A DNA stretch of 64,000 nt from Nostoc sp. ATCC 53789 (GTDB lineage: Bacteria > Cyanobacteriota > Cyanobacteriia > Cyanobacteriales > Nostocaceae): positions 682,001-746,000 of the forward strand of contig NZ_CP046703.1 in assembly GCF_009873495.1 (NCBI RefSeq), written 5' to 3'. The first letter of the stretch is position 1. Every line of letters starts with the position of its first letter. The notes beneath the pieces are model-generated. The model made no database searches and was not told the origin of the DNA. It worked only from the letters and a program-made list of their open reading frames with translations. A program made the position numbers and the translations under genes. Positions 1-28,054 of this stretch are shown in pieces.

Positions 1-831
1 ATTAACCGAAGTCTCCAAAGGCATGGCACTTGTCAAAATCGTTAGAATTTCCAATCGTCCATTGCGATCGGGAACCCGAAACTGAACTTCGCGATCGAAG
101 CGTCCCGGACGACGCAGCGCCGGATCGAGATAATCGGGACGATTTGTTGCCGCTAATACAATTACGCCCTCAGTTTTAGCAAACCCATCCATTAACCCAA
201 GCAACTGCGCCACTAGTCTTTTTTCAACTTCACCTTCCACTTGGCTGCGATCTGGGGCCAGGCTGTCAATTTCGTCAATAAATATCAGGCAGGGAGCAGA
301 ACGAGTTGCTTTCTCAAAAATACTTCGCAAACGAGCTTCTGCTTCCCCGTAATACTTGCTCATCACCTCTGGGCCATTGATGGCAATGTAGTTTAACTCT
401 AACTCTTCTGCCAAAACACGGGCTGTTAAAGTTTTTCCCGTACCGGGCGGGCCAACGAGCAAAACCCCACGCGGAGGCTCTAACCCTAATTTCACCAATA
501 AATCTGGACGTTTAAGTGGAATTTCAACTAACTCTCTGATTTCTTGGAGAACATCAGCCAAGCCGCCGATACCTTGCCAAGAAGCTTTTGAGTTCGTCCG
601 AGCTGATGGGGGGGTGACATCAGTATCATCCGTTGGTGTAGCTGCATCGGTGGAATTGGATCTGACTCGGCTGGAATTACTTGTTCTCGGAATATTGCCT
701 TGCCGGGGAATACTACTGAGATTATGAGACCGAATTTGAATAGAAGTTTTTAACTCCCCTTTCTCTACTTTTTCTTCTAAAGCTTTTGCAATTTCTAATA
801 GGTGTTCAAATCCTTTAAATATGTCGTCCAT
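1..831 (-). CDS. Cdc48/FtsH-like AAA ATPase, gas-vesicle associated (3' end outside window)
   Basis: The first 277 residues are visible; the gene runs off the left edge. A start ATG lies at 831-829 ([16 protein letters not shown]). Residues 1-40 are helical, 40-95 are a Ser/Thr/Arg-rich linker, and an AAA domain follows with Walker A GPPGTGKT, Walker B LIFIDEID and the SRH region [17 protein letters not shown]. Proteins of this type use ATP to unfold or remodel protein complexes. It is read in the same direction as gvpN-J-K-F, 351 bases past gvpF, so a role in gas-vesicle assembly or turnover is inferred from position only. The AAA assignment is secure; the exact subfamily (Cdc48-like or FtsH-like) is not, because the C-terminal half is missing. 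Confidence 0.88.
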
Positions 832-1182: not shown

Positions 1183-1926
1183 TTACGCCGTTGTACTTAA
1201 TCGAAGACGAGCAAAGTTATACGGGGCAGTGAAATTGTTGTAGCGAATTCGCAAACGGTTTTCAAATTGGCGATCGAGTGCTTCAACGTGTTCGCTAAAT
1301 TGTGATTCTGTTTCCCAAGGAATTAGGTAGGCTGAATTGTAGATCATTGTGTCCATTTGGGGAGCATTTTCTACTACCTCGATCGCAATGGAGTTGAGCG
1401 TGCTTTTAAATACATCGATGATGCCTTGCTTGCGATCGCTCATTCCCTGTTCGATGACTTGCCCTATTTGGATTACCCGCTCCATACTCAGGGGTTGACC
1501 CACTAGTTTATCCCTTTCAGTTTTGAGATTTGGGTGTTCTGCCAATAGTCCCTGAATTTCTGCCTCGGTATCCCAAAAAACTTTGACACTAACTTCTCGG
1601 CAACCCGATAACTTCGCAAGCAATTGCGTCAATTCTTCTTGATGAGGACGAATTAATTGCTCTGAAACCTTTTCCCAACTGGAAACCAAAAGTCCAAATT
1701 GCACGGGCAGTAAATAGCGATCGCCTCCTTGCATGATCTCCTCAAGGACTTTTTCATGACTTAGCAGGTTACGACGGCTGGCCAAATAACGCTCTTGCTG
1801 TGCTTCCGAATAGATGACTGCAAAATCATCCAAAATTTTAATTTGTACGGGTTGCCGATCTAAGCCCTCTAAATTTAAATTTTGGGGAGCAGGCAAGGTC
1901 AAAATTCCATAAATGTAAAAACTCAT
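1183..1926 (-). CDS. gvpF: Gas vesicle protein GvpF/GvpL
   Basis: A 247-aa protein of normal length for the GvpF/GvpL family. It opens with the family signature FYIYGILTLP and has the central block YLLPVQFGLLVSSWEKV, then a C-terminal alpha/beta domain ending in RLRIRYNNFTAPYNFARLRL, which is typical of the family C-terminus. GvpF is a minor vesicle protein that contacts the structural protein GvpA during early assembly (known for the family). The gene is fourth in the leftward gvpN-J-K-F run, 36 bases after gvpK, so co-transcription is likely. GvpF and GvpL are paralogues, and the sequence alone does not separate the two names. Confidence 0.93.
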   Translation of the reverse strand: MSFYIYGILTLPAPQNLNLEGLDRQPVQIKILDDFAVIYSEAQQERYLASRRNLLSHEKVLEEIMQGGDRYLLPVQFGLLVSSWEKVSEQLIRPHQEELTQLLAKLSGCREVSVKVFWDTEAEIQGLLAEHPNLKTERDKLVGQPLSMERVIQIGQVIEQGMSDRKQGIIDVFKSTLNSIAIEVVENAPQMDTMIYNSAYLIPWETESQFSEHVEALDRQFENRLRIRYNNFTAPYNFARLRLSTTA

Positions 1927-1962: not shown

Positions 1963-2397
1963 TTACAGGGGTTTAGAAGTGAGTACTAATCTTAATTTGG
2001 CATGAACTAAGCTTAATTGAGCCAGTCCTAAGTCCAAGTCACCTTCAACCACAACACCCGTATTTAATAGGCGATCGAGAAGTTCTAGAATAGAGGGTTG
2101 ACTAGAGGTTTCACCGGGGTAGTATCCTCCAGATTGGGGAAGTAAATTTCCCATTTCACCCAAGTTAATATTTAGATCGGCTGGGTCAACATCAAATATC
2201 TCGCAAAGCTTAACAACCTGTTGTTCAAGCTGTTGTAGGCTTTCGGAAGCTCGATCTAACTCATAGTCGTTGAGAGTGCCAGCATCCATTCGCCGAATCA
2301 CCTGAGCTTCCATGAGTTGGCGTATCAGCTCAACAACCGTCAGTAACAACGGTGCTAAACCGGAATCGGAACCTTTTGATTTACTAATCGCCTGCAT
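1963..2397 (-). CDS. gvpK: Gas vesicle protein GvpK with a GvpA/J-like C-terminal extension
   Basis: A 144-aa protein. Residues 14-90 match the GvpK core (LAPLLLTVVELIRQLMEAQ, then DPADLNINLGEMGNLLP). After a Gly/Ser/Pro linker, residues 101-141 (SILELLDRLLNTGVVVEGDL...KLRLVLTS) read like the GvpA/GvpJ core, with the same helix, beta-hairpin, helix pattern as in the neighbouring GvpJ. GvpK is a minor assembly protein. The start overlaps the end of gvpJ by 14 bases, implying translational coupling. The extension may be usual in cyanobacterial GvpK; I could not compare lengths across the family. Confidence 0.92.
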   Translation of the reverse strand: MQAISKSKGSDSGLAPLLLTVVELIRQLMEAQVIRRMDAGTLNDYELDRASESLQQLEQQVVKLCEIFDVDPADLNINLGEMGNLLPQSGGYYPGETSSQPSILELLDRLLNTGVVVEGDLDLGLAQLSLVHAKLRLVLTSKPL

Positions 2398-2734
2398 TCT
2401 GATGATTAATAGGATTTAGTGTTTTAAGCGATTGCAGTTCTGTTTCTAGACTGGCAAGACGCTCTTGAAGTTGTTGATTAGTTGCTAATAAGGTGCGAGT
2501 TTGACTATTAAGATAGGGGTCGCTCTCCCACCAGTTAATTCCAATCTCTTTGGCTTTATCAACAGAAGAAATCAACAAACGAATTCGGATGTTGAGCAGT
2601 TCTGTGGAGCCTACGGAAATAGAAATATCTCCTGCGATAACAATGCCTTTATCCAGAACCCGTTCTAGAATATCTGCCAAGGTAGAACCTTGAGTTGATG
2701 TGGTGATAGCTCCCCGATTAGTATTAGTACTCAT
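2384..2734 (-). CDS. gvpJ: Gas vesicle protein GvpJ (GvpA-family minor wall protein)
   Basis: A 116-aa protein. After a polar N-terminal tail of about 16 residues comes the GvpA-family core, [20 protein letters not shown] through [21 protein letters not shown] Gln/Leu-rich helical tail of about 40 residues distinguishes GvpJ-type proteins from the short structural GvpA. Such proteins are thought to form the conical tips or to nucleate assembly. The start overlaps the end of gvpN by four bases, a classic coupled arrangement. It is the only complete GvpA-family protein in the window. Confidence 0.92.
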
Positions 2735-3903
2735 TTGTTTATTAAATGGCCAGAATCAAGAGCAACTGTTTGTGAGATGTTCGGCGACTCGGCATTGCCC
2801 TGCATTTGGACTAATACTCCCTGCTCTCTGAGAGACTTGAGTGCAGCCACAATTTGACTGCGATCGATCCCTAGTTCTACTGCCAATTCAGAGAAACGCC
2901 TTCCTGGAGAATTACACAGGTAGTTATAGACTTCATGTTCGTAAGGTACTCGTTGTTCCAATACAATCTGATTTTGGTTGTTTGGTATTATCTCTGACGG
3001 CTGAGATTGAGTATTTATACGATGATAGAATTCACTTAAAACCTCTTCCAGTAGCCGAGTTGCTTCCATGAGAGGTTGATTCGTGCGAGAAAGCAGGATA
3101 TCGGCACAAATATCTTGGAAGTTAGGATCTCCAGGGTTGACGGAAATTTCGTGTTCGTGGCAGATTTTGGCAATCATCAGACAGGAACGTAATCCACCGC
3201 CCTGTCCAGAGCCAGATCGACTCCAAAACGTCCGTACTAAGCGGACAATTACTTCTGCTTTCTCGGAATCTATACCTGTTTTATGAACTACAATTTCCTG
3301 CTGACTCAGTTCATCAGGTGTAGGCATATCGATGGTAATAACACGATCCATCAAAGCATCCTGAGTTGCATGAACTCCACAATACTCTTGAGGATTTGAT
3401 GTTAAGATTGCCCGAAACTGAGGGTGAACCCGGATATACTCGGCTCGATGTTGGTTTGTTGGTAATACTAACAACCTCTCCTCAAGTACGGAGAGTAAAA
3501 CGTTATTTACCTCTGGGTGCGATCGATTGAATTCGTCGTAAACCAGCGTAAATCCTTCTTTACAAGCTAGGGTTAATCGTGCATCAACCCAATGTTGTCG
3601 GAGTTCATCCTCAACTTTAACAACGCTGTGGATATAATTATCAACAACCTTTTTACGGGTATAACCTAATTGATTACCAATCAAGTCTGAGGTTTTAAAC
3701 TCATCATCTCCAAATAAGAGGATGATCGGCTGATTGAGCAAATCAGCTAGATGCATTGCCAGAGTAGTTTTTCCGACTCCGGCTGCACCACGCAAATGTA
3801 TTGAAAAACCTGACTGTAGATAGCGCAAAGCACGTTGAGCGACGCGTTGAACCGCAGGTGTATTGACAAATCGCTGGGGAGATGCATTTAATACTGTTGT
3901 CAA
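2731..3903 (-). CDS. gvpN: Gas vesicle AAA+ ATPase GvpN, with winged-helix-like tail
   Basis: A 390-aa MoxR-like AAA+ protein. Walker A is [10 protein letters not shown] (about residues 38-47), Walker [11 protein letters not shown], sensor-1 AILTSNP, and the arginine region is at [15 protein letters not shown]. GvpN is needed for vesicles to grow to full width. The start is a TTG at 3903 preceded by GGAGG ten bases upstream; the N-terminus from that codon ([19 protein letters not shown]) fits the family. Residues about 320-385 ([31 protein letters not shown]) look like a winged-helix fold, beyond the usual GvpN core. First gene of the leftward gvpN-J-K-F run. No gvpA or gvpC precedes it. Confidence 0.93.
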
Positions 3904-4117: not shown

Positions 4118-4372
4118 ATGGTTCTGCGCTTCTTACTATTACCGATTACTGGCCCATTAATGGGGGTAACGTGGCTTGGGGAAAAAATTTTAGAACATGC
4201 GAGTACTGAAATTGATGATAAAGAGAATCTCAGCAAGCAGCTTCTTGCACTCCAACTTGCTTTTGATATGGGGGAAATTCCTGAAGAAGAGTTTGAAATT
4301 CAGGAAGAAGCTCTTTTATTAGCGATTCTGGAAGCAGAACAGGAGGAACGCGATCAAACACAAGAGGATTGA
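4118..4372 (+). CDS. gvpG: Gas vesicle protein GvpG
   Basis: An 84-aa protein. The N-terminus LPITGPLMGVTWLGEKILE and the acidic helical tail LQLAFDMGEIPEEEFEIQEEALL are hallmarks of GvpG, a small accessory protein that binds other minor gas-vesicle proteins. It is transcribed away from gvpN, so the two share the 214-base region 3904-4117 for their promoters. In characterised Anabaena-type clusters gvpG follows gvpF on the same strand, so this orientation suggests a rearranged cluster. A hairpin terminator follows at 4409. Confidence 0.92.
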   Translation: MVLRFLLLPITGPLMGVTWLGEKILEHASTEIDDKENLSKQLLALQLAFDMGEIPEEEFEIQEEALLLAILEAEQEERDQTQED

Positions 4373-4677: not shown

Positions 4678-4986
4678 ATGGAAGCTTTACCCGATAATTG
4701 GGCAGATATTCAACCTGATACTGTATATCTTTCAATCAGTGGTCTGCTAGTTTTATTTGGCAGCGAACAAATAAAGCTGGGATTAAAATATGATCGGAAG
4801 GGGAAACATTTAAAAGCCATTGAGAAAGGGCTTGTACCTCCTCGCGGTAATGTTGGGTTGGTGGCTTCCCAAGAATCTGGCTACGATTTTAAATCTAAAG
4901 TCTTAGGTAAAGGTGGCGACCGCCGATTTCATGCAAAATTCATTGATGGTATATTGCACTTCTCTGGTTTGGTAACAGAACATTAA
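4678..4986 (+). CDS. Unknown 102-aa protein, possibly a truncated toxin-like domain
   Basis: I do not recognise a named family. The protein is mildly basic and has a Gly/Arg/His-rich C-terminus (VLGKGGDRRFHAKFIDG) with a polar cluster such as small nucleases often have. The next gene starts 12 bases later and encodes a strongly acidic protein. A small basic protein followed closely by an acidic one resembles a polymorphic-toxin tip with its immunity protein, or a toxin-antitoxin pair, but this is inference from arrangement. The start ATG lies eight bases after a MITE, with no good ribosome-binding site, so the N-terminus may have been lost. Confidence 0.55.
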   Translation: MEALPDNWADIQPDTVYLSISGLLVLFGSEQIKLGLKYDRKGKHLKAIEKGLVPPRGNVGLVASQESGYDFKSKVLGKGGDRRFHAKFIDGILHFSGLVTEH

Positions 4987-4998
4987 ACCCACATAACT

Positions 4999-5400
4999 AT
5001 GACAAGGCTCGAATTAAAAAATCATCAAGTTTGGCAAGATTTAACTGAAATATTACAAAGTTTAGATGCTAATCTTCTTGTTCAAGAACATCTTGACCAG
5101 TGTGATTATAAAGTGTGTGGCTATTGGGATGAACAAGATGAATATTATGAGAAAATTACGTTACCTCGTACCCTAGAAGCCGAATTAGTTAGCAGTTCAA
5201 TAGGCGTTAATCACGAAGAACGTTTTTTACAACTAAAGTTTTTGCTCATAGCTGATGCTGTTGATAATACGAAAACTGCAAGTAGCAATGCTCAAAAACT
5301 TGGTGAATTGGTTCTTGTTTATGATGAAAATCTAGAATTTATTGATGAGAATTGGCTTTTAGATGTCGATTCTTCATTCCTTGTGAAGCTATCTGGCTAA
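4999..5400 (+). CDS. Unknown acidic 133-aa protein, immunity-like by context
   Basis: No family recognised. Asp and Glu far outnumber Lys and Arg, and several aromatic residues sit in the N-terminal half (CDYKVCGYWDEQDEYYEK). Composition and size resemble immunity proteins, which are small, acidic and encoded directly after their toxin. No signal peptide or membrane segment is visible. It starts 12 bases after the preceding 102-aa gene and is presumably co-transcribed with it. Real coding is supported by even length, normal composition and an AACAT stop-start junction typical of a bicistron; function is not. Confidence 0.6.
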   Translation: MTRLELKNHQVWQDLTEILQSLDANLLVQEHLDQCDYKVCGYWDEQDEYYEKITLPRTLEAELVSSSIGVNHEERFLQLKFLLIADAVDNTKTASSNAQKLGELVLVYDENLEFIDENWLLDVDSSFLVKLSG

Positions 5401-5526: not shown

Positions 5527-6345
5527 CTAAGACAGAGATATATCATGCTTAGTAAATACGCTAAAAACATCTAAAAACTCAATAACTGCTTCATTTTCAG
5601 ATAATGGTTGACCCTGTTCGTTAAGCATCACTTTATACGGACGATTACAAGTGAAACAGAAATCTTGAAAAAAAAATGTCCAACCACAGTCAGCAACAAA
5701 TGCTTTAAGTATGTGCCAAAGATTGTCTTCGGGAAAGCATTGTAATTCAGAAATGCAGTAATCGAGTAAGCAGCAGACACTACACTCTGCATCTGGCACC
5801 ACTAAACCAGATACCAAAAAACGCCACAATCCCTCTAGCCGTCTTTGCTGATTTGTTTTTGCAGATTTCCAAACTGGAGATAATTTTTCACTATCACGTA
5901 AATTTACAGGTATAAGGCTATGTATAATTGGCCAAAATCTCAACTGCTTTTGAAGATAGTTCCATAGACAAATATCCAACTGACTCCCAACTTTTTCGAT
6001 TAATGGCGATACAATATATCGATGAAATGTATTACTGAAAAGCCCTTTTTTAAGTAATTGCTTCTCAAGCCGCCTAATGAGATTATTAAGTTTTCGAGGA
6101 TTACACCAATCTTCATGCGGATAAATACAGTTGAGAAAACTTAAATTAGCTATACCAAATGGACTATCAAAAAAATATATGTCGAATTCTTTTACACTAG
6201 ATATTTGCTTATAAACAGTTTTAATCGTTTGAGTCGCTTTTTGTGTATCAATAGGTTGTGTTGAAAGTGCTGCTAACTGCCACTTTCTCTTATATTCACA
6301 AAGTAAAGCTTCCTGATGTGGTGTTAACTCAGAAATTAGTTGCAT
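5527..6345 (-). CDS. Uncharacterised 272-aa protein, DUF6745-like
   Basis: The N-terminus (LTPHQEALLCEYKRKWQLAALSTQPID) and the C-terminal block FVADCGWTFFFQDFCFTCNRPYKVML resemble a group of uncharacterised cyanobacterial proteins that begin with an LTPEQ..L...Y..KW motif and carry a CGW..PF....C..C.RP motif (DUF6745 as I recall it). That group has no known reaction. The protein has ten cysteines, several in pairs, so metal binding is possible. It lacks a signal peptide and separates gvpG from gvpV, so it interrupts the gas-vesicle cluster and is not obviously part of it. Confidence 0.6.
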   Translation of the reverse strand: MQLISELTPHQEALLCEYKRKWQLAALSTQPIDTQKATQTIKTVYKQISSVKEFDIYFFDSPFGIANLSFLNCIYPHEDWCNPRKLNNLIRRLEKQLLKKGLFSNTFHRYIVSPLIEKVGSQLDICLWNYLQKQLRFWPIIHSLIPVNLRDSEKLSPVWKSAKTNQQRRLEGLWRFLVSGLVVPDAECSVCCLLDYCISELQCFPEDNLWHILKAFVADCGWTFFFQDFCFTCNRPYKVMLNEQGQPLSENEAVIEFLDVFSVFTKHDISLS

Positions 6346-6644: not shown

Positions 6645-6929
6645 TTAGTATTCCAATGTTAGGGTGTTGAATTTTGGTGTATTGTTTTCTAAGTCAGTAT
6701 TTGCTTGCTGATGGGTCATGTCCCCTTCAGCAATTGTTTGACTATTTAAAATAGCAAGACGCTGCTGAATCTGATGTCGGCGTGCTTCGAGTTTCTCTAG
6801 TTCCTCCTCTAAACGCTCCTTCTCTAACATCATTTTGTAAGCATTTAAGTAAGCTGTTGCTTGAGAACGTTGAGGAGGCATGGTGCTAAGTTTGGCTTGA
6901 ATTTGTCTGCGGTTTGGAGTGCGATGCAT
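6645..6929 (-). CDS. gvpV: Gas vesicle protein GvpV
   Basis: A 94-aa protein. The N-terminus RRQIQAKLSTMPPQRSQATAYL and the following coiled-coil (KERLEEELEKLEARRHQIQQRL) match cyanobacterial GvpV, a small accessory protein found after gvpG in characterised gas-vesicle clusters. Biochemical role is unknown. It is 45 bases downstream of the ArsA-like ATPase gene and on the same strand, so the two are probably co-transcribed. The C-terminal 25 residues are polar and likely disordered. Its separation from gvpG by the 4.5-6.3 kb block suggests an insertion or rearrangement in the cluster. Confidence 0.85.
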   Translation of the reverse strand: MHRTPNRRQIQAKLSTMPPQRSQATAYLNAYKMMLEKERLEEELEKLEARRHQIQQRLAILNSQTIAEGDMTHQQANTDLENNTPKFNTLTLEY

Positions 6930-6974
6930 AATAAATTTCCCTTTGGGTATGAAAGTATTTAGTCTAATTAGCCA

Positions 6975-8858
6975 TTAAAATAAACAGCCGGCTGCTGCTT
7001 GGATGCGTTCTAAAGGCTGAACTGAGCGAGGAAGCATTGGTAAGCGAACCATTGTCAAACCTGGAAAATCGCAATTAATGGTTGCTGTAGAAGTAAAGCG
7101 GTTGAGAACAAGGTAATTCTGACTTACACCTATTTCTTGCATAGATTTGAACAGGCGTTGTTGTTCGGCAAGTACACTAGTCTGGTTAAGTGTAACCCCA
7201 ATGAACTCTGCTTGTTGTGGGTCTTTTAGCACTTTTTGGGCTTTAACTACACGCTGTCGCAAAGTTCGTAAACGCCCCATAAACTCTGTACGACCAAGGA
7301 CATTCTGATACTTGATCCAGAGTTTGAAAATCCAAGCTAGCCAGTCTGCTAATGCAGTTGGCATTTCTAGAAAACGCAGAAGATGACCTGTAGGAGCAGT
7401 GTCTAAAATAATTAAGTCTTCTTCTTGTTGCTCTAGCAATTCCATTACTGTTAACAGGGAAAGTATTTCATCAATCCCTGGTAAGGCTTGATCGACAATT
7501 TTGCGCCAGGCAGCAGGAGCATAGGCCATTTCAATAGCTTCGCTTGTTTGGGTTTCGCCACTCATCATTTGGGCCAGTTCCCATAGGTAATCGGCTCTGA
7601 ATTGATCGAGAATGCGATCGCCATCTACTTCCTGACCTCGAAGATTGGCAGTTATTTGATATGGTTCGTGTCCTAAACTCAAACCAAAGGCATCACCCAA
7701 AGAATGGGCTGGATCGATAGAAACCATGCGAATTTTGCGATCGGGATGTTGTTGAGCCATAGCCCAACCAATGGCAGCTGCTACTGTGGTTTTGCCTACT
7801 CCACCCTTACCGCCAATTAGTAACAGGCGACGACCTTTGGTGAGAAAATCTCCAAAGCTAGGAGGAATTGTTTCCGGCCATTGAACTGGGAGTAGATCGA
7901 TAAAAGATAGCGGTTCAAGCTGAGGAACATGGATTTGGTTGATGAGATGGCTGAGGGCTAGAATCCCTAAAGGCTCCTCATCTTGCTGTGGCACAATAAA
8001 AATCGGCTTTTCGTTAGCAAGATCGGTATACTGACCGATCATCGGTTGTTGTTCTTGGTAACGATCTGGGTCAGTCGCACTGGCCAGGACTTGGTTAACA
8101 AACAACCCTCCGCAAGGAACCTGCAAAGTTTGTAAGGCTTCTAGGAACCGTTTTGACTCCAACCAACTCATTGGTTCGGCGATCGCAACTAACAAACAAG
8201 CTGTATGGATGGGATCTTGAAGCAGACGACGACCTTGCGACAGTTCAGCTTTCAGGGTTTGCAAAAACTCGTCAGCGCGATCGGGTGTGTAACTTCCAGC
8301 AAAGGTCTTGCTAATAATCCGATGCTTTTCTTGAAACAGTTCAAGAGAGTGGAGGAAAGTGTCTAAAAAGTCCATCAATCCAAACAAGTTGAGAGTATGA
8401 CCGCTAGGAGCCATATCAACTACTACTCGATCTACCCGCTGCTCCTGAAAAAGGCGTTGGATCTCTAACAAGCCCATCAACTCGTCCAGTCCAGGCCAAT
8501 TTAAATCCCAAACTGGAGACAAGTCTTCTCCTTCAACAAAACTACCTCGCTCCACTAACAGTTCTAAAACCTGGCCGTAACGTTCTTTAAACTTTTGTAG
8601 CAGAAGCTTTGCATCCAACGCCCTTACTCGTAGATTTGGTAGTTCCGCTATGGGACGAGGAATGTCATCAACACTAACTTGTAAGACATCTCCAAGAGAG
8701 TGAGCCGGATCGGTTGAGATTAAAAGAATTTGCTCATTGGCGAATTTCTGCGCCCAACGACATGCAAAGGTGCAGGAGATTGTCGTTTTTCCGACTCCAC
8801 CTTTGCCGCTAAACATAGCAAGGTGTAGGTTATCAAAAAGTTCCATCCCGTTTGTCAT
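6975..8858 (-). CDS. Two-lobed ArsA/Get3-type ATPase linked to gvpV
   Basis: A 627-aa tandem duplication of the ArsA/TRC40/Get3 fold. First lobe: deviant Walker A SGKGGVGKTT (about residue 17), STDPAHSLGD switch, DMAPSGHTL loop. Second lobe (from about 335): GGKGGVGKTT, SIDPAHSLGD, DTAPTGHLL. Both lobes keep the signature lysine and appear ATP-competent. No CxxC zinc pair of eukaryotic Get3 and no arsenite-site cysteine cluster is seen, and no arsB or arsR lies nearby. ArsA-family proteins energise arsenite pumps or chaperone hydrophobic tail-anchored proteins. Its position before gvpV suggests a chaperone for hydrophobic gas-vesicle subunits (inference). It may correspond to a gene given a gvp letter elsewhere; I cannot verify that. 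Confidence 0.87.
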   Translation of the reverse strand: MTNGMELFDNLHLAMFSGKGGVGKTTISCTFACRWAQKFANEQILLISTDPAHSLGDVLQVSVDDIPRPIAELPNLRVRALDAKLLLQKFKERYGQVLELLVERGSFVEGEDLSPVWDLNWPGLDELMGLLEIQRLFQEQRVDRVVVDMAPSGHTLNLFGLMDFLDTFLHSLELFQEKHRIISKTFAGSYTPDRADEFLQTLKAELSQGRRLLQDPIHTACLLVAIAEPMSWLESKRFLEALQTLQVPCGGLFVNQVLASATDPDRYQEQQPMIGQYTDLANEKPIFIVPQQDEEPLGILALSHLINQIHVPQLEPLSFIDLLPVQWPETIPPSFGDFLTKGRRLLLIGGKGGVGKTTVAAAIGWAMAQQHPDRKIRMVSIDPAHSLGDAFGLSLGHEPYQITANLRGQEVDGDRILDQFRADYLWELAQMMSGETQTSEAIEMAYAPAAWRKIVDQALPGIDEILSLLTVMELLEQQEEDLIILDTAPTGHLLRFLEMPTALADWLAWIFKLWIKYQNVLGRTEFMGRLRTLRQRVVKAQKVLKDPQQAEFIGVTLNQTSVLAEQQRLFKSMQEIGVSQNYLVLNRFTSTATINCDFPGLTMVRLPMLPRSVQPLERIQAAAGCLF

Positions 8859-9133: not shown

Positions 9134-12100
9134 ATGGTTAACAGTTCTGAAGGCGATATAAATATTGGGTTTAATGTCCAATGTATTTCTGAATACGACT
9201 TTTTTTCTGACAGTAATTTTGAGGACATTCATTGTCGTCCACTTAAAACAGACTCTCCGTACTTAGGACTAAAAACTTTTGAAATTAAAGATAAAGACAA
9301 ATTTTTTGGTCGGGAGAAGTGGATTGCTAATCTGGGAAATTGCTTAAAAAAAGATAATGTACTCTTGCTTTTAGGAGCATCAGACAGTGGCAAATCATCA
9401 TTGATTCGGGCAGGTTTAATTCCTTATTTAGGATCTCATAAAAATTCATTAATTAATATAAGTTTTCACCCAGATGAAAATCCTTTTATATCTCTTTATA
9501 AGTGTCTTGCTTCTACTTATGGTAAAAAATCGCAAATTGCAGATATTGCTCGAGAAATAAGAGAAAATACCCTAATTAAAATTGTCACATTCCTCAAACA
9601 AGATTATCAGTGCATTCTGATTTTTATTGACCAATTTGAAGAACTGTTTACAAAAACTCAAAAACCGGAACGCTATAAATTTGTTGCTAGTCTCTTTCAA
9701 CTGTTCCAGCAGCAGGATAGCTCTGTCAAAATTGTTTTAACCATGCGATCTGATTTTTTGGATAGATTTAGTGAGTATCCCCAACTTGCAAAGATCCATG
9801 ATCGCTATAGTCGTATACTCACTAGAATGAGTGATGCAGAATTAAAGTTAGCGATCGCTGAACCTGCTGCTAAAAATGGCGTTACCTTTGAACAAGGATT
9901 AGTTGAGCAAATTATTCATGATTTTCACCAACAAAATGATTATTTACCACTTCTGGCATACACTTTAGATGTGCTGTGGGAAAGAGAAAATATTGCAAAC
10001 CGGGTTCTGAAGATAAAGACTTATCAAGAACTAAAAGAGCAAACGTTTGGTTATTTAAGCGAACAAGCTAATCAATTTATTAATGCTAGTGTTGGATGGC
10101 GCGATCGCCAGGAACAAGAGATTCAAAAGTTAAACCTTGCACTGACTGAATTAAAACTGCGCGAGCAATCCGCCAGGGTTTTGAATTTACTTCCTGTCCA
10201 ACCGCTAGAGGGTTTGGTGCTGGCAATTCAAACAATGGGTGAGAATTTAGAGAAATATCCAAACCAGCTTCTAGCTCCTGTTTTGGGAAGCTTAAAGGAA
10301 GCAATGAACACACCCACAGAGGCAAATAGCTTGCGCGGACACGAGCAAGAGGTTAATTGTCTAGCCTTTAGTCCTGATGGCAAGTTTATTGCTAGTGGCA
10401 GTAGCGATTCTACGGTTTGCTTGTGGAATATCATTGGCAATCCTACCGCTCAATTTTTGTTGGGGCACGAGCAAGAGGTTAATTGTCTAGCTTTTAGTCC
10501 TGATGGCAAGTTTATTGTTAGTGGCAGTATTGACGGAATTTTGTGTTTATGGGATCTACAAGGTAATCTCATTACTCAACCGTGGCAGGGACATGAGGAA
10601 GGAGTTATTTCCGTCGCTTTTAGTCCAAATAGCGATGGCTGCGCCAACCCCGGAGGGGTACGCATTGTCAGTGTTGGTTTTGACGGAACAGTTTGTTTGT
10701 GGGATTTACAAGGTAACGCCATTACTCAACCTTGGCGCGGACACAAGGAAGGAGTTATTTCCGTCGCCTTTAGCCCAAATGGCGATTGCATTATCAGTGT
10801 TGGTTTTGACGGAACGGTGTGTTTGTGGGATTTACAAGGTAACAGCATTACCCAACCCTGGCACAAACATGAGGCGAAAATTATTTGCGTCGCCTTTAGC
10901 TCTGATAGCAAGTTTATTGTCAGTGGTAGTAGTGATTCTACAGTGCGGTTATGGGACATCCAAGGTAATCCCATCGGTCAACCTTGGCACGGGCATGAAG
11001 GACATATAAATTCTGTAGCGTTTAGCCCTGATGGCAAGTTTATTATTAGTGGTAGCTGCGATCGCACAATACGCTTGTGGAATATCAATGGCAACCCCAT
11101 CACTCAACCTTGGCGGGGACATGAAGGACAGGTTAATTCCTTAGCCTTTAGCCCTGATGGCAAGCTGATTATCAGTGGTGGCGATAAAACTGTGCGTTTG
11201 TGGGAGCTACATCAAATACTACAAGATCGGGTCATCGGGCGATCGCAACGCAAATATGAGAATTGGGTCAATTGTGTCGCCTTTAGCCCAGATAGTCAGT
11301 GGATTATCACTGCCAGCAATGATTCGACAATCCGTTTGTGGGATATTCACGGCAACCCCATTGGTCAACCTTGGCATGGGCATGAAAAAGAAGTTAATTC
11401 TGTCGCCTTTAGCCCTGATGGTCAGTGGATTATCAGCGCCAGCAATGATTCGACAGTGCGCTTATGGGATATTCACGGCAACCCCATTGGTCAACCTTGG
11501 CGCGGACATGAAAAAGAAGTCAATTCTGTCACCTTTAGCCCTGATGGTCAGTGGATTATCAGTGCCAGCAATGATTCGACAGTCCGCTTGTGGGATATTC
11601 ACGGCAACCCCATTGGTCAACCTTGGCGCGGACATGAAAAAGAAGTCAATTCTGTCACCTTTAGCCCTGATGGTCAGTGGATTATCAGTGCCAGCAATGA
11701 TTCGACAATCCGCTTGTGGGATATTCACGGCAACCCCATTGGTCAACCTTGGCGTGGGCATGAAAAAGAAGTTAATTCTGTCGCCTTTAGCCCTGATGGT
11801 AAGTGGATTGTCAGTGCCAGCAATGATTCGACAGTGTGCTTGTGGGATATTTACGGCAACCCCATTGGTCAACCTTGGCGTGGGCATGAAAAAGAAGTTA
11901 ATTCTGTCGCCTTTAGCCCTGATGGTAAGTGGATTGTCAGTGCCAGCAATGATTCGACAGTGTGCTTGTGGGATATTTACGGCAACCCCATTGGTAGACC
12001 TTGGCGCGGGCATGAGTATTGGGTAAATTCCGCAGCTTTTAGCCCTGATGGTAAACTGATTGTCAGTGGTAGTCTTGATGGAACAGTCCGCTTGTGGTAC

Positions 12101-12388
12101 TGTGGGTGGCAAGAATGGTTGCAAGTTTGCTGCAACAGATTAAATTATCATCCCGTCTTTCAAAATCCTGAAAATGGCAGTGATGTAGAAATTGCCTACC
12201 AAACTTGTCAAAAATATGTATGGAATCCACAATTCCCCAAACAGTTGCACAACCAAGGAGCAGCCAAGCTAAAAGAGAAAGCTTTTTTAGCAGCTTTAGA
12301 GGATTTTAAGCAAGCAGTTCAACTTAATTTCACATCGCACTGGAAAGATCGCCTTGCTTGGCAATCAGTACCCACAGAGAACCAATAA
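9134..12388 (+). CDS. nSTAND NTPase with 14 WD40 repeats
   Basis: 1084 aa. After about 40 N-terminal residues comes an nSTAND1-type conserved motif (YLGLKTFEIKDKDKFFGRE), Walker A GASDSGKSS (about residue 81), Walker B ILIFIDQFEELF, and a helical region to about 390. Residues 393-1000 are 14 WD40 repeats of 42 residues, enough for two seven-bladed propellers. A TPR-like tail follows (LKEKAFLAALEDFKQAVQLN). STAND proteins sense a ligand with repeats and switch by ATP binding; several classes act in anti-phage immunity. No catalytic effector domain is visible at the N-terminus. The start ATG is supported by AAGGAG six bases upstream. The adjacent restriction-type remnant fits a defence-related locus (inference). 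Confidence 0.93.
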   Translation: MVNSSEGDINIGFNVQCISEYDFFSDSNFEDIHCRPLKTDSPYLGLKTFEIKDKDKFFGREKWIANLGNCLKKDNVLLLLGASDSGKSSLIRAGLIPYLGSHKNSLINISFHPDENPFISLYKCLASTYGKKSQIADIAREIRENTLIKIVTFLKQDYQCILIFIDQFEELFTKTQKPERYKFVASLFQLFQQQDSSVKIVLTMRSDFLDRFSEYPQLAKIHDRYSRILTRMSDAELKLAIAEPAAKNGVTFEQGLVEQIIHDFHQQNDYLPLLAYTLDVLWERENIANRVLKIKTYQELKEQTFGYLSEQANQFINASVGWRDRQEQEIQKLNLALTELKLREQSARVLNLLPVQPLEGLVLAIQTMGENLEKYPNQLLAPVLGSLKEAMNTPTEANSLRGHEQEVNCLAFSPDGKFIASGSSDSTVCLWNIIGNPTAQFLLGHEQEVNCLAFSPDGKFIVSGSIDGILCLWDLQGNLITQPWQGHEEGVISVAFSPNSDGCANPGGVRIVSVGFDGTVCLWDLQGNAITQPWRGHKEGVISVAFSPNGDCIISVGFDGTVCLWDLQGNSITQPWHKHEAKIICVAFSSDSKFIVSGSSDSTVRLWDIQGNPIGQPWHGHEGHINSVAFSPDGKFIISGSCDRTIRLWNINGNPITQPWRGHEGQVNSLAFSPDGKLIISGGDKTVRLWELHQILQDRVIGRSQRKYENWVNCVAFSPDSQWIITASNDSTIRLWDIHGNPIGQPWHGHEKEVNSVAFSPDGQWIISASNDSTVRLWDIHGNPIGQPWRGHEKEVNSVTFSPDGQWIISASNDSTVRLWDIHGNPIGQPWRGHEKEVNSVTFSPDGQWIISASNDSTIRLWDIHGNPIGQPWRGHEKEVNSVAFSPDGKWIVSASNDSTVCLWDIYGNPIGQPWRGHEKEVNSVAFSPDGKWIVSASNDSTVCLWDIYGNPIGRPWRGHEYWVNSAAFSPDGKLIVSGSLDGTVRLWYCGWQEWLQVCCNRLNYHPVFQNPENGSDVEIAYQTCQKYVWNPQFPKQLHNQGAAKLKEKAFLAALEDFKQAVQLNFTSHWKDRLAWQSVPTENQ
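10635..10663. repeat. Small dispersed repeat inserted in-frame in WD40 repeat 3
   Basis: GGCTGCGCCAACCCCGGAGG and seven following bases interrupt repeat 3. The sister repeat 4 reads FSPNGDCIISVGFDG, while repeat 3 reads FSPNSDGCANPGGVRIVSVGFDG. The extra residues fall in a loop between blade strands and keep frame. The motif is of the GGCTGCGCC / GGGTACGC class of short repeats found between Nostoc genes. Confidence 0.7.
11341..12010 (+). repeat. Near-identical 126-bp WD40-coding tandem repeats
   Basis: The phrase TGGGATATTCACGGCAACCC or its TTTACGGC variant recurs with exact 126-base spacing (GGATAT at 11341, 11467, 11593, 11719, 11845, 11971). Adjacent units differ by only a few bases, much less than repeats 1-7 differ among themselves, indicating recent duplication or gene conversion. 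Confidence 0.9.
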
Positions 12389-27604: not shown

Positions 27605-28054
27605 ATGTTATTTCGTTACAACTCTGCACAAGATTTCAACACTTTAGAAAGTTACATCAACGGTCTATTGGGAGACACTAAAGTCCCATCTGCACAGTTT
27701 GAAAAAGGCTCTGTCAAAGTTCCGGCTGCTGAACTGCAAGAAACTGATGATGCAATTTATCTGAAGCTAGAACTGCCAGGGCTGGAAGCTAAAGACCTAG
27801 ATATTCAAGTTACAGAAGATACTGTTCACATTAGCGGTGAACGCAAGTCTGAAACCAAAACCCAAAACAATAGCACTACCAAGAGCGAATTCTACTATGG
27901 TAAATTCCAACGTGTAATTCCTCTATCTGCTCGGGTTCAAAATACTAATGTCACCGCAAATTATAAAAACGGTATTTTGAATTTGACACTGCCCAAGTCC
28001 GAGAAAGAAAAGAACAAAGTTGTCAAGGTTAATCTAGAGCAAACTACTGCTTAA
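27605..28054 (+). CDS. hspA: Small heat-shock protein HspA (Hsp20)
   Basis: 149 aa, usual size for the cyanobacterial Hsp17/HspA group. N-terminal arm to about residue 40, alpha-crystallin domain about 45-138 (DDAIYLKLELPGLEAKDLDI, FYGKFQRVIPLSARV, NGILNLTLPKSE) and a short C-terminal tail. It is an ATP-independent chaperone that binds unfolding proteins and, in cyanobacteria, protects thylakoid membranes and phycobilisomes. Monocistronic: a strong terminator follows at 28103. Ribosome-binding site is weak (AGGGA 12 bases upstream), as often for heat-inducible cyanobacterial hspA with thermosensitive leaders. Confidence 0.95.
   Translation: MLFRYNSAQDFNTLESYINGLLGDTKVPSAQFEKGSVKVPAAELQETDDAIYLKLELPGLEAKDLDIQVTEDTVHISGERKSETKTQNNSTTKSEFYYGKFQRVIPLSARVQNTNVTANYKNGILNLTLPKSEKEKNKVVKVNLEQTTA

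Follow-up and report, generated by a model that had tools for sequence, protein, structure and literature searches.

Among 195 Cyanobacteriia genomes, a two-lobed ATPase of the Get3/ArsA family was found only in genomes that also carry gas-vesicle (gvp) genes, and in Nostoc sp. ATCC 53789 its gene lies in a gas-vesicle island, directly before gvpV. The gene was studied in a stretch of 64,000 nucleotides of that genome (contig NZ_CP046703.1, positions 682,001 to 746,000; hereafter the window), for which an earlier note, made from the sequence alone, had proposed that the ATPase is a dedicated chaperone for gas-vesicle assembly. The gene context, a nested phyletic pattern, nucleotide-site motifs in both lobes, the absence of the arsenite-binding cysteines and a hydrophobic helical insert in each lobe are all observed, and we consider it an evenly balanced proposition that the protein is a Get3-type holdase, which in its two-lobed, ATP-closed form would shield hydrophobic Gvp subunits (predicted clients GvpA and GvpJ) and release them on hydrolysis.

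Co-occurrence with gas-vesicle genes

The survey covered genomes with a completeness of at least 95%, and all counts are raw counts which ignore kinship. With a threshold of E <= 1e-60, the two-lobed ATPase was called in 77 of the 195 genomes (including a fragment in G009 and a split open reading frame (ORF) in G030), gvpK in 106 and gvpN in 105, the 106 gvp-positive genomes including one (G050) with a weak gvpK match and no gvpN. All 77 carriers have both gvpK and gvpN, and the ATPase was found in none of the 89 genomes lacking gvpK or gvpN, which is far from the equal frequency with and without gas-vesicle genes that the earlier note had named as fatal to its idea. Counted by genus, the ATPase is present in 51/107 and gvpK in 61/107, and there are three genera (g2, g5 and g73) in which some members carry the gvp genes plus the ATPase and others have neither. 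Comparing the identities of island genes for co-inheritance gave a mixed picture, and a comparison by eye of the ATPase with long GvpN across the surveyed genomes gave no clean rule. Single-lobed ArsA/Get3 members (ArsA_ATPase, E <= 1e-18) were present in all 31 genomes checked, i.e. the 29 gvp-positive non-carriers and two carriers; a two-lobed frame was seen in just one of these two carriers, the other having a fragment.

At most 25 kb separate the ATPase from gvpK or gvpN in 22/77 carriers, or in 39/77 when the Cdc48/p97-type AAA gene described below is counted as well, while gvpK and gvpN are within 25 kb of each other in 63/105 genomes; it is thus their joint presence which ties the ATPase to the gvp genes even where they lie apart. 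Plasmid records with GvpN numbered 25 (E <= 1e-30), one of which also contained the ATPase at the same threshold. In two other plasmid clusters, those of Octadecabacter and Methylocella, no ArsA is annotated in the 12 kb around gvpN, and both contain Hsp20.

Nucleotide sites and hydrophobic inserts

The ATPase matches Pfam ArsA_ATPase in two stretches (E 1.7e-101) and scores above the curated cut-off of TIGR00345, the TRC40/GET3/ArsA ATPase superfamily model (352.1 vs 135 bits), which all members of a hand-chosen alignment of 72 ATPase sequences (the window protein, 47 loci and 24 proteins, taken from 120 listed proteins and the fetched loci) match at E <= 1e-30. The deviant Walker A, switch I and switch II motifs are present in both lobes and are invariant or at least 90% conserved in the 72 rows; in the window protein, lobe 1 reads SGKGGVGKTT...DPAHSLGD and lobe 2 GGKGGVGKTT...DPAHSLGD, exactly as the earlier note had read them. 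The two lobes are on a single chain, unlike the classical Get3 homodimer of single lobes, and the zinc CXXC of classical Get3 is lacking: CxxC occurs anywhere in just 2/72 rows, the window protein not being one of them, and columns 29 and 221 are the only ones which are mostly Cys. The protein also falls below the equivalog cut-off of NF050088 (Get3d/NosAFP; 115.9 vs 325 bits).

Each lobe has a hydrophobic insert following switch II, of 60 residues in lobe 1 (22 large hydrophobics) and 53 in lobe 2 (25 large hydrophobics) of the window protein, with a near-constant length across the 72 rows (60-61 and 53 residues, respectively). When compared with Chlamydomonas ArsA1 (CrArsA1) and two arsenite pumps, the comparison being confined to these three, the lobe 1 insert is close to the 64 residues of CrArsA1 and longer than the 46 of the pumps, while the lobe 2 insert is shorter than the 66 residues of CrArsA1. 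In the lobe 2 helix W506, L513 and W514 are invariant, as is Y517 just past it. The structure model is closed and two-lobed, with a confidence (predicted local distance difference test) of only about 69-78 at the lobe 2 helix, and its lobe fold is common to Get3 bound to a transmembrane domain (TMD) in a structure comparison in which a match missing from the list was not read as absence; this shared fold by itself is no proof of function. The best sequence match in the PDB is CrArsA1, and overall the sequence speaks for client helices of the Get3 type rather than for an arsenite pump.

Gene neighbourhood, gvpV and the AAA gene

The ATPase and gvpV ORFs are on the same strand and separated by 45 bases (6930-6974), as the earlier note had it (Table 1). 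To place this arrangement we used 80 of 126 relatives, those in named GTDB genomes, and dropped one (L044) with an incomplete ORF, leaving 79 complete loci. In the 23 loci with an ATPase at least 90% identical (Nostoc-type), gvpV follows on the same strand in 22, with a gap of 45 bases in 18, 44 in one, 319 in one and 0 in two in which the ORF was read from an earlier start, while the 23rd stops at a contig edge. Of the other 56 loci, 23 have a GvpF/L-type gene before the ATPase on its strand (gap -70 to 43), as in the classical Nostocales cluster, where a GvpL/F-type gene is directly upstream; a Cdc48-type gene comes next after the ATPase on the same strand in 23 and is upstream on the opposite strand in nine, and gvpV follows the ATPase in three, two of which are Trichodesmium loci with a gap of 93 bases. 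Adjacency to gvpV therefore extends beyond this genome to its close relatives and to Trichodesmium, whereas elsewhere a different gene usually stands next to the ATPase; as the ATPase/gvpV arrangement recurs in other loci, it is not due to chance. In 18/79 loci the fetched stretch contained no gvp gene and no full AAA gene; eight of these, including Arthrospira and three Planktothrix records, were covered for at least 9.9 kb on both sides, and one of the 18 (L048) shows a cut-off AAA gene.

Table 1. Features of the ATPase gene and the gas-vesicle island in the window
Feature	Position	Strand	Basis
Two-lobed Get3/ArsA-family ATPase (gas-vesicle-linked subfamily), 627 aa	6975..8858	-	ORF; Pfam; TIGR00345; co-occurrence
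Lobe 1 P-loop SGKGGVGKTT (residues 17-26)	8781..8810	-	S17-K24 and T26 invariant, T25 at least 90%, 72 rows
Lobe 2 P-loop GGKGGVGKTT (residues 349-358)	7785..7814	-	G350-K356 and T358 invariant, G349/T357 at least 90%, 72 rows
Lobe 1 long helix following switch II, insert predicted to bind clients (residues 152-187)	8298..8405	-	Model; alignment
Lobe 2 Trp-rich helix following switch II, insert predicted to bind clients (residues 490-516)	7311..7391	-	Alignment; model
gvpV, 94 aa	6645..6929	-	Alignment; gvp co-occurrence; position of homologues
gvpN	2731..3903	-	TIGR02640, 384.8 bits vs cut-off 266.8
gvpJ-like gene (Gas_vesicle domain)	2384..2734	-	PF00741; best NCBIfam match is halo GvpJ, below cut-off
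gvpK with C-terminal Gas_vesicle domain	1963..2397	-	PF05121 and PF00741
gvpF	1183..1926	-	NF052351, 371 bits vs cut-off 350
gvpG-like gene	4118..4372	+	Conserved 84-aa ORF of the island; named by inspection
Cdc48/p97-type double-AAA gene, 5' part	1..831	-	Runs past the window edge; L004:9008-10831

The label gvpV of the 94-amino-acid (aa) ORF was open to doubt, as it scored above no curated family cut-off in Pfam or NCBIfam, where no curated GvpV model matched, and 'hypothetical protein' is the name given to 21 of the 31 relatives found, gas vesicle protein to none; the ORFs at 4678-5400 were considered as alternatives. The doubt was settled by alignment, position and co-occurrence. The ORF is homologous (29-52% identity outside its own clade) to ORFs of 104-142 aa that other Nostocales have on the opposite strand, in the interval from gvpG to the gvpW position; several of these ORFs carry the NCBI name 'gas vesicle protein', and in Anabaena PCC 7120 GvpV is described downstream of gvpG in the accessible text of PMC7204071. 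The homologues share an N-terminal motif around S/T-M-P, a coiled-coil-like middle and a C-terminal Tyr, and P18, L28, L61 and Y94 are invariant in an alignment of 17 hand-chosen sequences, none of which came labelled GvpV. A profile of the family matches 104/106 gvp-positive and 2/89 gvp-negative genomes, so that the name given in the earlier note stands. The two gvpK/gvpN-free genomes which still match (G100 and G085) perhaps contain remnants of lost clusters. Mutants in a Serratia gene of the same name, gvpV, arrest at small bicones (PMC4982088).

The gvpN, gvpJ-like, gvpK and gvpF genes are all downstream of the ATPase/gvpV pair, and beyond the window edge the double-AAA gene is followed by a second GvpL/F-type gene, a gvpA match and a gvpC-like gene; the gvpG-like, second GvpL/F-type and gvpC-like genes were named by inspection and not by family search. 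The window GvpK ends in a GvpA-like domain, and one genus (g21) has six genomes with a long gvpK frame of 436-470 aa. No Pfam or NCBIfam family matched the two plus-strand ORFs at 4678-5400, which recur in many Nostoc islands, or the minus-strand ORF at 5527-6345, which recurs in few. The divergent neighbour of the ATPase encodes a 1084-aa nSTAND1-WD40 protein (9134-12388, plus strand), and a small heat-shock gene of the Hsp20 family is located 19 kb from the ATPase (27605-28054, plus strand). On the 35.8-kb Nostoc sphaeroides plasmid p4 (NZ_CP031945.1, L106), two gvpA genes, gvpC, gvpN, the ATPase and the AAA gene are found along with another five gas-vesicle genes, arranged J, K, F, V, W (letters except K assigned by position), which suggests that the gas-vesicle set can move as one unit.

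The AAA protein (607 aa) is matched twice by PF00004, and from residue 81 onwards both of its AAA domains match p97 and the VCP-like ATPase 5vc7 (best E 7.1e-176). At E <= 1e-150 its gene was present in 106/106 gvp-positive and 5/89 gvp-negative genomes, in some of them in two copies, and it tracks the gvp genes more closely than the two-lobed ATPase does. We tentatively suggest, as a possibility on the doubtful side, that gas-vesicle islands carry a eukaryote-like pair, a Get3-type holdase and a Cdc48/p97-type unfoldase, which would feed and rescue GvpA during vesicle building. Among the literature matches listed for gas vesicles and Cdc48/VCP, none concerned a cyanobacterial gvp-linked Cdc48 by title, and the word Cdc48 occurs once in a haloarchaeal gas-vesicle paper (PMC6107691). 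A proteobacterial gas-vesicle cluster on a Methylocella tundrae plasmid (L108:16078-19447) has Hsp20 and its own double-AAA protein, and no annotated ArsA.

Proposed function, rival readings and known systems

In the proposed holdase cycle, ATP binding would close the lobes and bring the two inserts together as a hydrophobic groove, the groove would take up a hydrophobic segment of a putative Gvp client, and hydrolysis would open it and let the client pass to the GvpL/F-type assembly proteins GvpF and GvpW. As far as the available text of PMC9501494 goes, haloarchaeal GvpF binds GvpA and GvpL binds GvpJ/M, and these proteins tend to form inclusion bodies if made without chaperones. Several observations weigh against such a holdase. 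Chief among them, contrast from vesicles in ultrasound was obtained in human cells with A. flos-aquae gvpA plus gvpNJKFGWV and no ATPase, and the A. flos-aquae cluster gave detectable vesicles in E. coli, too few for phase contrast (both in PMC10344784). Vesicles made in E. coli from the PCC 7120 cluster were irregular (PMC7204071); either of the gene sets used in E. coli may have included the ATPase. The ATPase is moreover absent from 29/106 gvp-positive genomes, and as it is restricted to gvp-positive genomes it appears dedicated but dispensable. Human cells possess their own TRC40 and p97, which is compatible with the chaperone idea without proving it. The interpretation of the earlier note is thus supported in part: neither of the two results that it had named as refuting was found and the Get3-type inserts speak in its favour, while the gvp-positive genomes without the ATPase and the contrast obtained without it show that the protein is not obligatory.

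The same gene context and co-occurrence would be expected if the ATPase energised another step of vesicle biogenesis, such as remodelling or recycling of a GvpF/GvpW/GvpV complex, without holding shell subunits. This is possible, if less than probable: the gene right next to it is gvpV or one of GvpF/L type and not gvpA, and an energised biogenic step was proposed in general wording by Castillo & Saier (PMC2963123, as far as available), whereas the conserved hydrophobic insert at the client site of Get3 and the lobe fold shared with TMD-bound Get3, the latter again no proof on its own, argue for a held client. A general targeting factor for tail-anchored proteins, merely riding along with the gvp genes, would also have a Get3-like insert, and cyanobacterial Get3d is reported to bind tail-anchored proteins (PMC10248533, available text), but we think this unlikely, given the absence of the ATPase from 89/89 gvp-negative genomes and the single-lobed ArsA/Get3 proteins in each of the 31 genomes checked, which could serve general clients. 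Deviant Walker A ATPases position other cyanobacterial organelles, and the ATPase has weak matches to ParA-type models; a ParA/McdA-like SIMIBI ATPase for positioning or segregation of gas vesicles is nevertheless distinctly unlikely, with 56.4 bits to the ParA partition model (cut-off 180) against 352 to the Get3/ArsA model (cut-off 135), and with a closed two-lobed model bearing a Get3-type insert.

An arsenite-pump ATPase present in the island by chance was rejected as highly improbable. The ATPase fails the equivalog cut-off of TIGR04291, the arsenical pump-driving ATPase ArsA (208.8 vs 650 bits), and has W117, I181 and G461 in place of Cys113, Cys172 and Cys422 of R773 ArsA, which we take to be the As(III) ligands; nor was the two-lobed ATPase ever found without gvp genes. 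The earlier note's remark that no arsenic genes are nearby holds for the 20 window ORFs scanned with Pfam, all in the first 33 kb, among which the ATPase was the only candidate, and the acr3 match (C1:6359123) and two ArsB-like permeases (C1:3572810 and 6715197) of this genome are more than 1.3 Mb from the ATPase (C1:688978) on the same contig, measured either way round. About 2 kb separate a weak ArsB-like permease match from a single-lobed ArsA homologue with a 413-aa frame (G000:C1:3572810-3576653).

The link between this kind of ATPase and gas-vesicle genes was already published in 2010 (PMC2963123). In the part of that paper available, cluster 4 of Castillo & Saier comprises eight two-domain ArsA proteins, seven cyanobacterial (617-684 aa) and one from Geobacter, the four checkable genes of which are in gvp operons without ars partners, with the cysteines missing, and these proteins were proposed to energise vesicle biogenesis; of the two genes of cluster 6, one is not gvp-linked. 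Judged by size, host and context, cluster 4 is the subfamily of the window ATPase. ArsA is also stated to co-evolve with gas-vesicle proteins (PMC5464585, available text). Where the 2010 work had few genomes and an energising role only, we add 195 genomes, and both papers, as far as available, lack a measure of how large and how asymmetric the pattern is, as well as the Get3/CrArsA1-type insert, the pairing with gvpV and the Cdc48-type partner. Literature searches, with most subscription papers outside them, found no paper joining 'gas vesicle' and 'Get3' as whole words, and no gas-vesicle paper with 'ArsA family' and cyanobacteria.

With CrArsA1 (5zme/5zmf) the ATPase shares two Get3 lobes on one chain, the lack of CXXC and the position of the hydrophobic insert, but CrArsA1, a protein with extended swapped helices, is eukaryotic and has chloroplast tail-anchored membrane proteins as clients, and the whole-chain match of the model is weaker to it than to ArsA. 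The ArsA pumps (E. coli R773, 1f48; Leptospirillum, 9nbw) have the same tandem two-lobed architecture and closed-state fold, but differ in their cysteines, in a lobe 1 insert which is 14 residues shorter and in the arsB/acr3 genes that the window ATPase lacks nearby. Get3/TRC40 (4xvu, 7sq0) and cyanobacterial Get3d/NosAFP have the nucleotide motifs and a hydrophobic insert but are single-lobed, Get3 having the zinc CXXC and Get3d ending in an alpha-crystallin domain, with catalytic residues that are often degenerate (PMC10248533, available text).

GvpA is hydrophobic and prone to inclusion bodies when made alone, which raises the question of how it stays soluble before it joins the shell, and poor heterologous assembly restricts the use of gas vesicles as ultrasound reporters. 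If the proposal is true, the cloned cyanobacterial set, which ends with gvpW, stops just short of a gene for a dedicated Get3-type ATPase that would serve as an extra assembly factor, and Get3 chemistry would reach from membranes to a protein-walled organelle. Under the more tentative pairing with a Cdc48/p97-type unfoldase, this would be the first Get3 pathway with a protein-only compartment as its target, a gas-filled organelle without a membrane.
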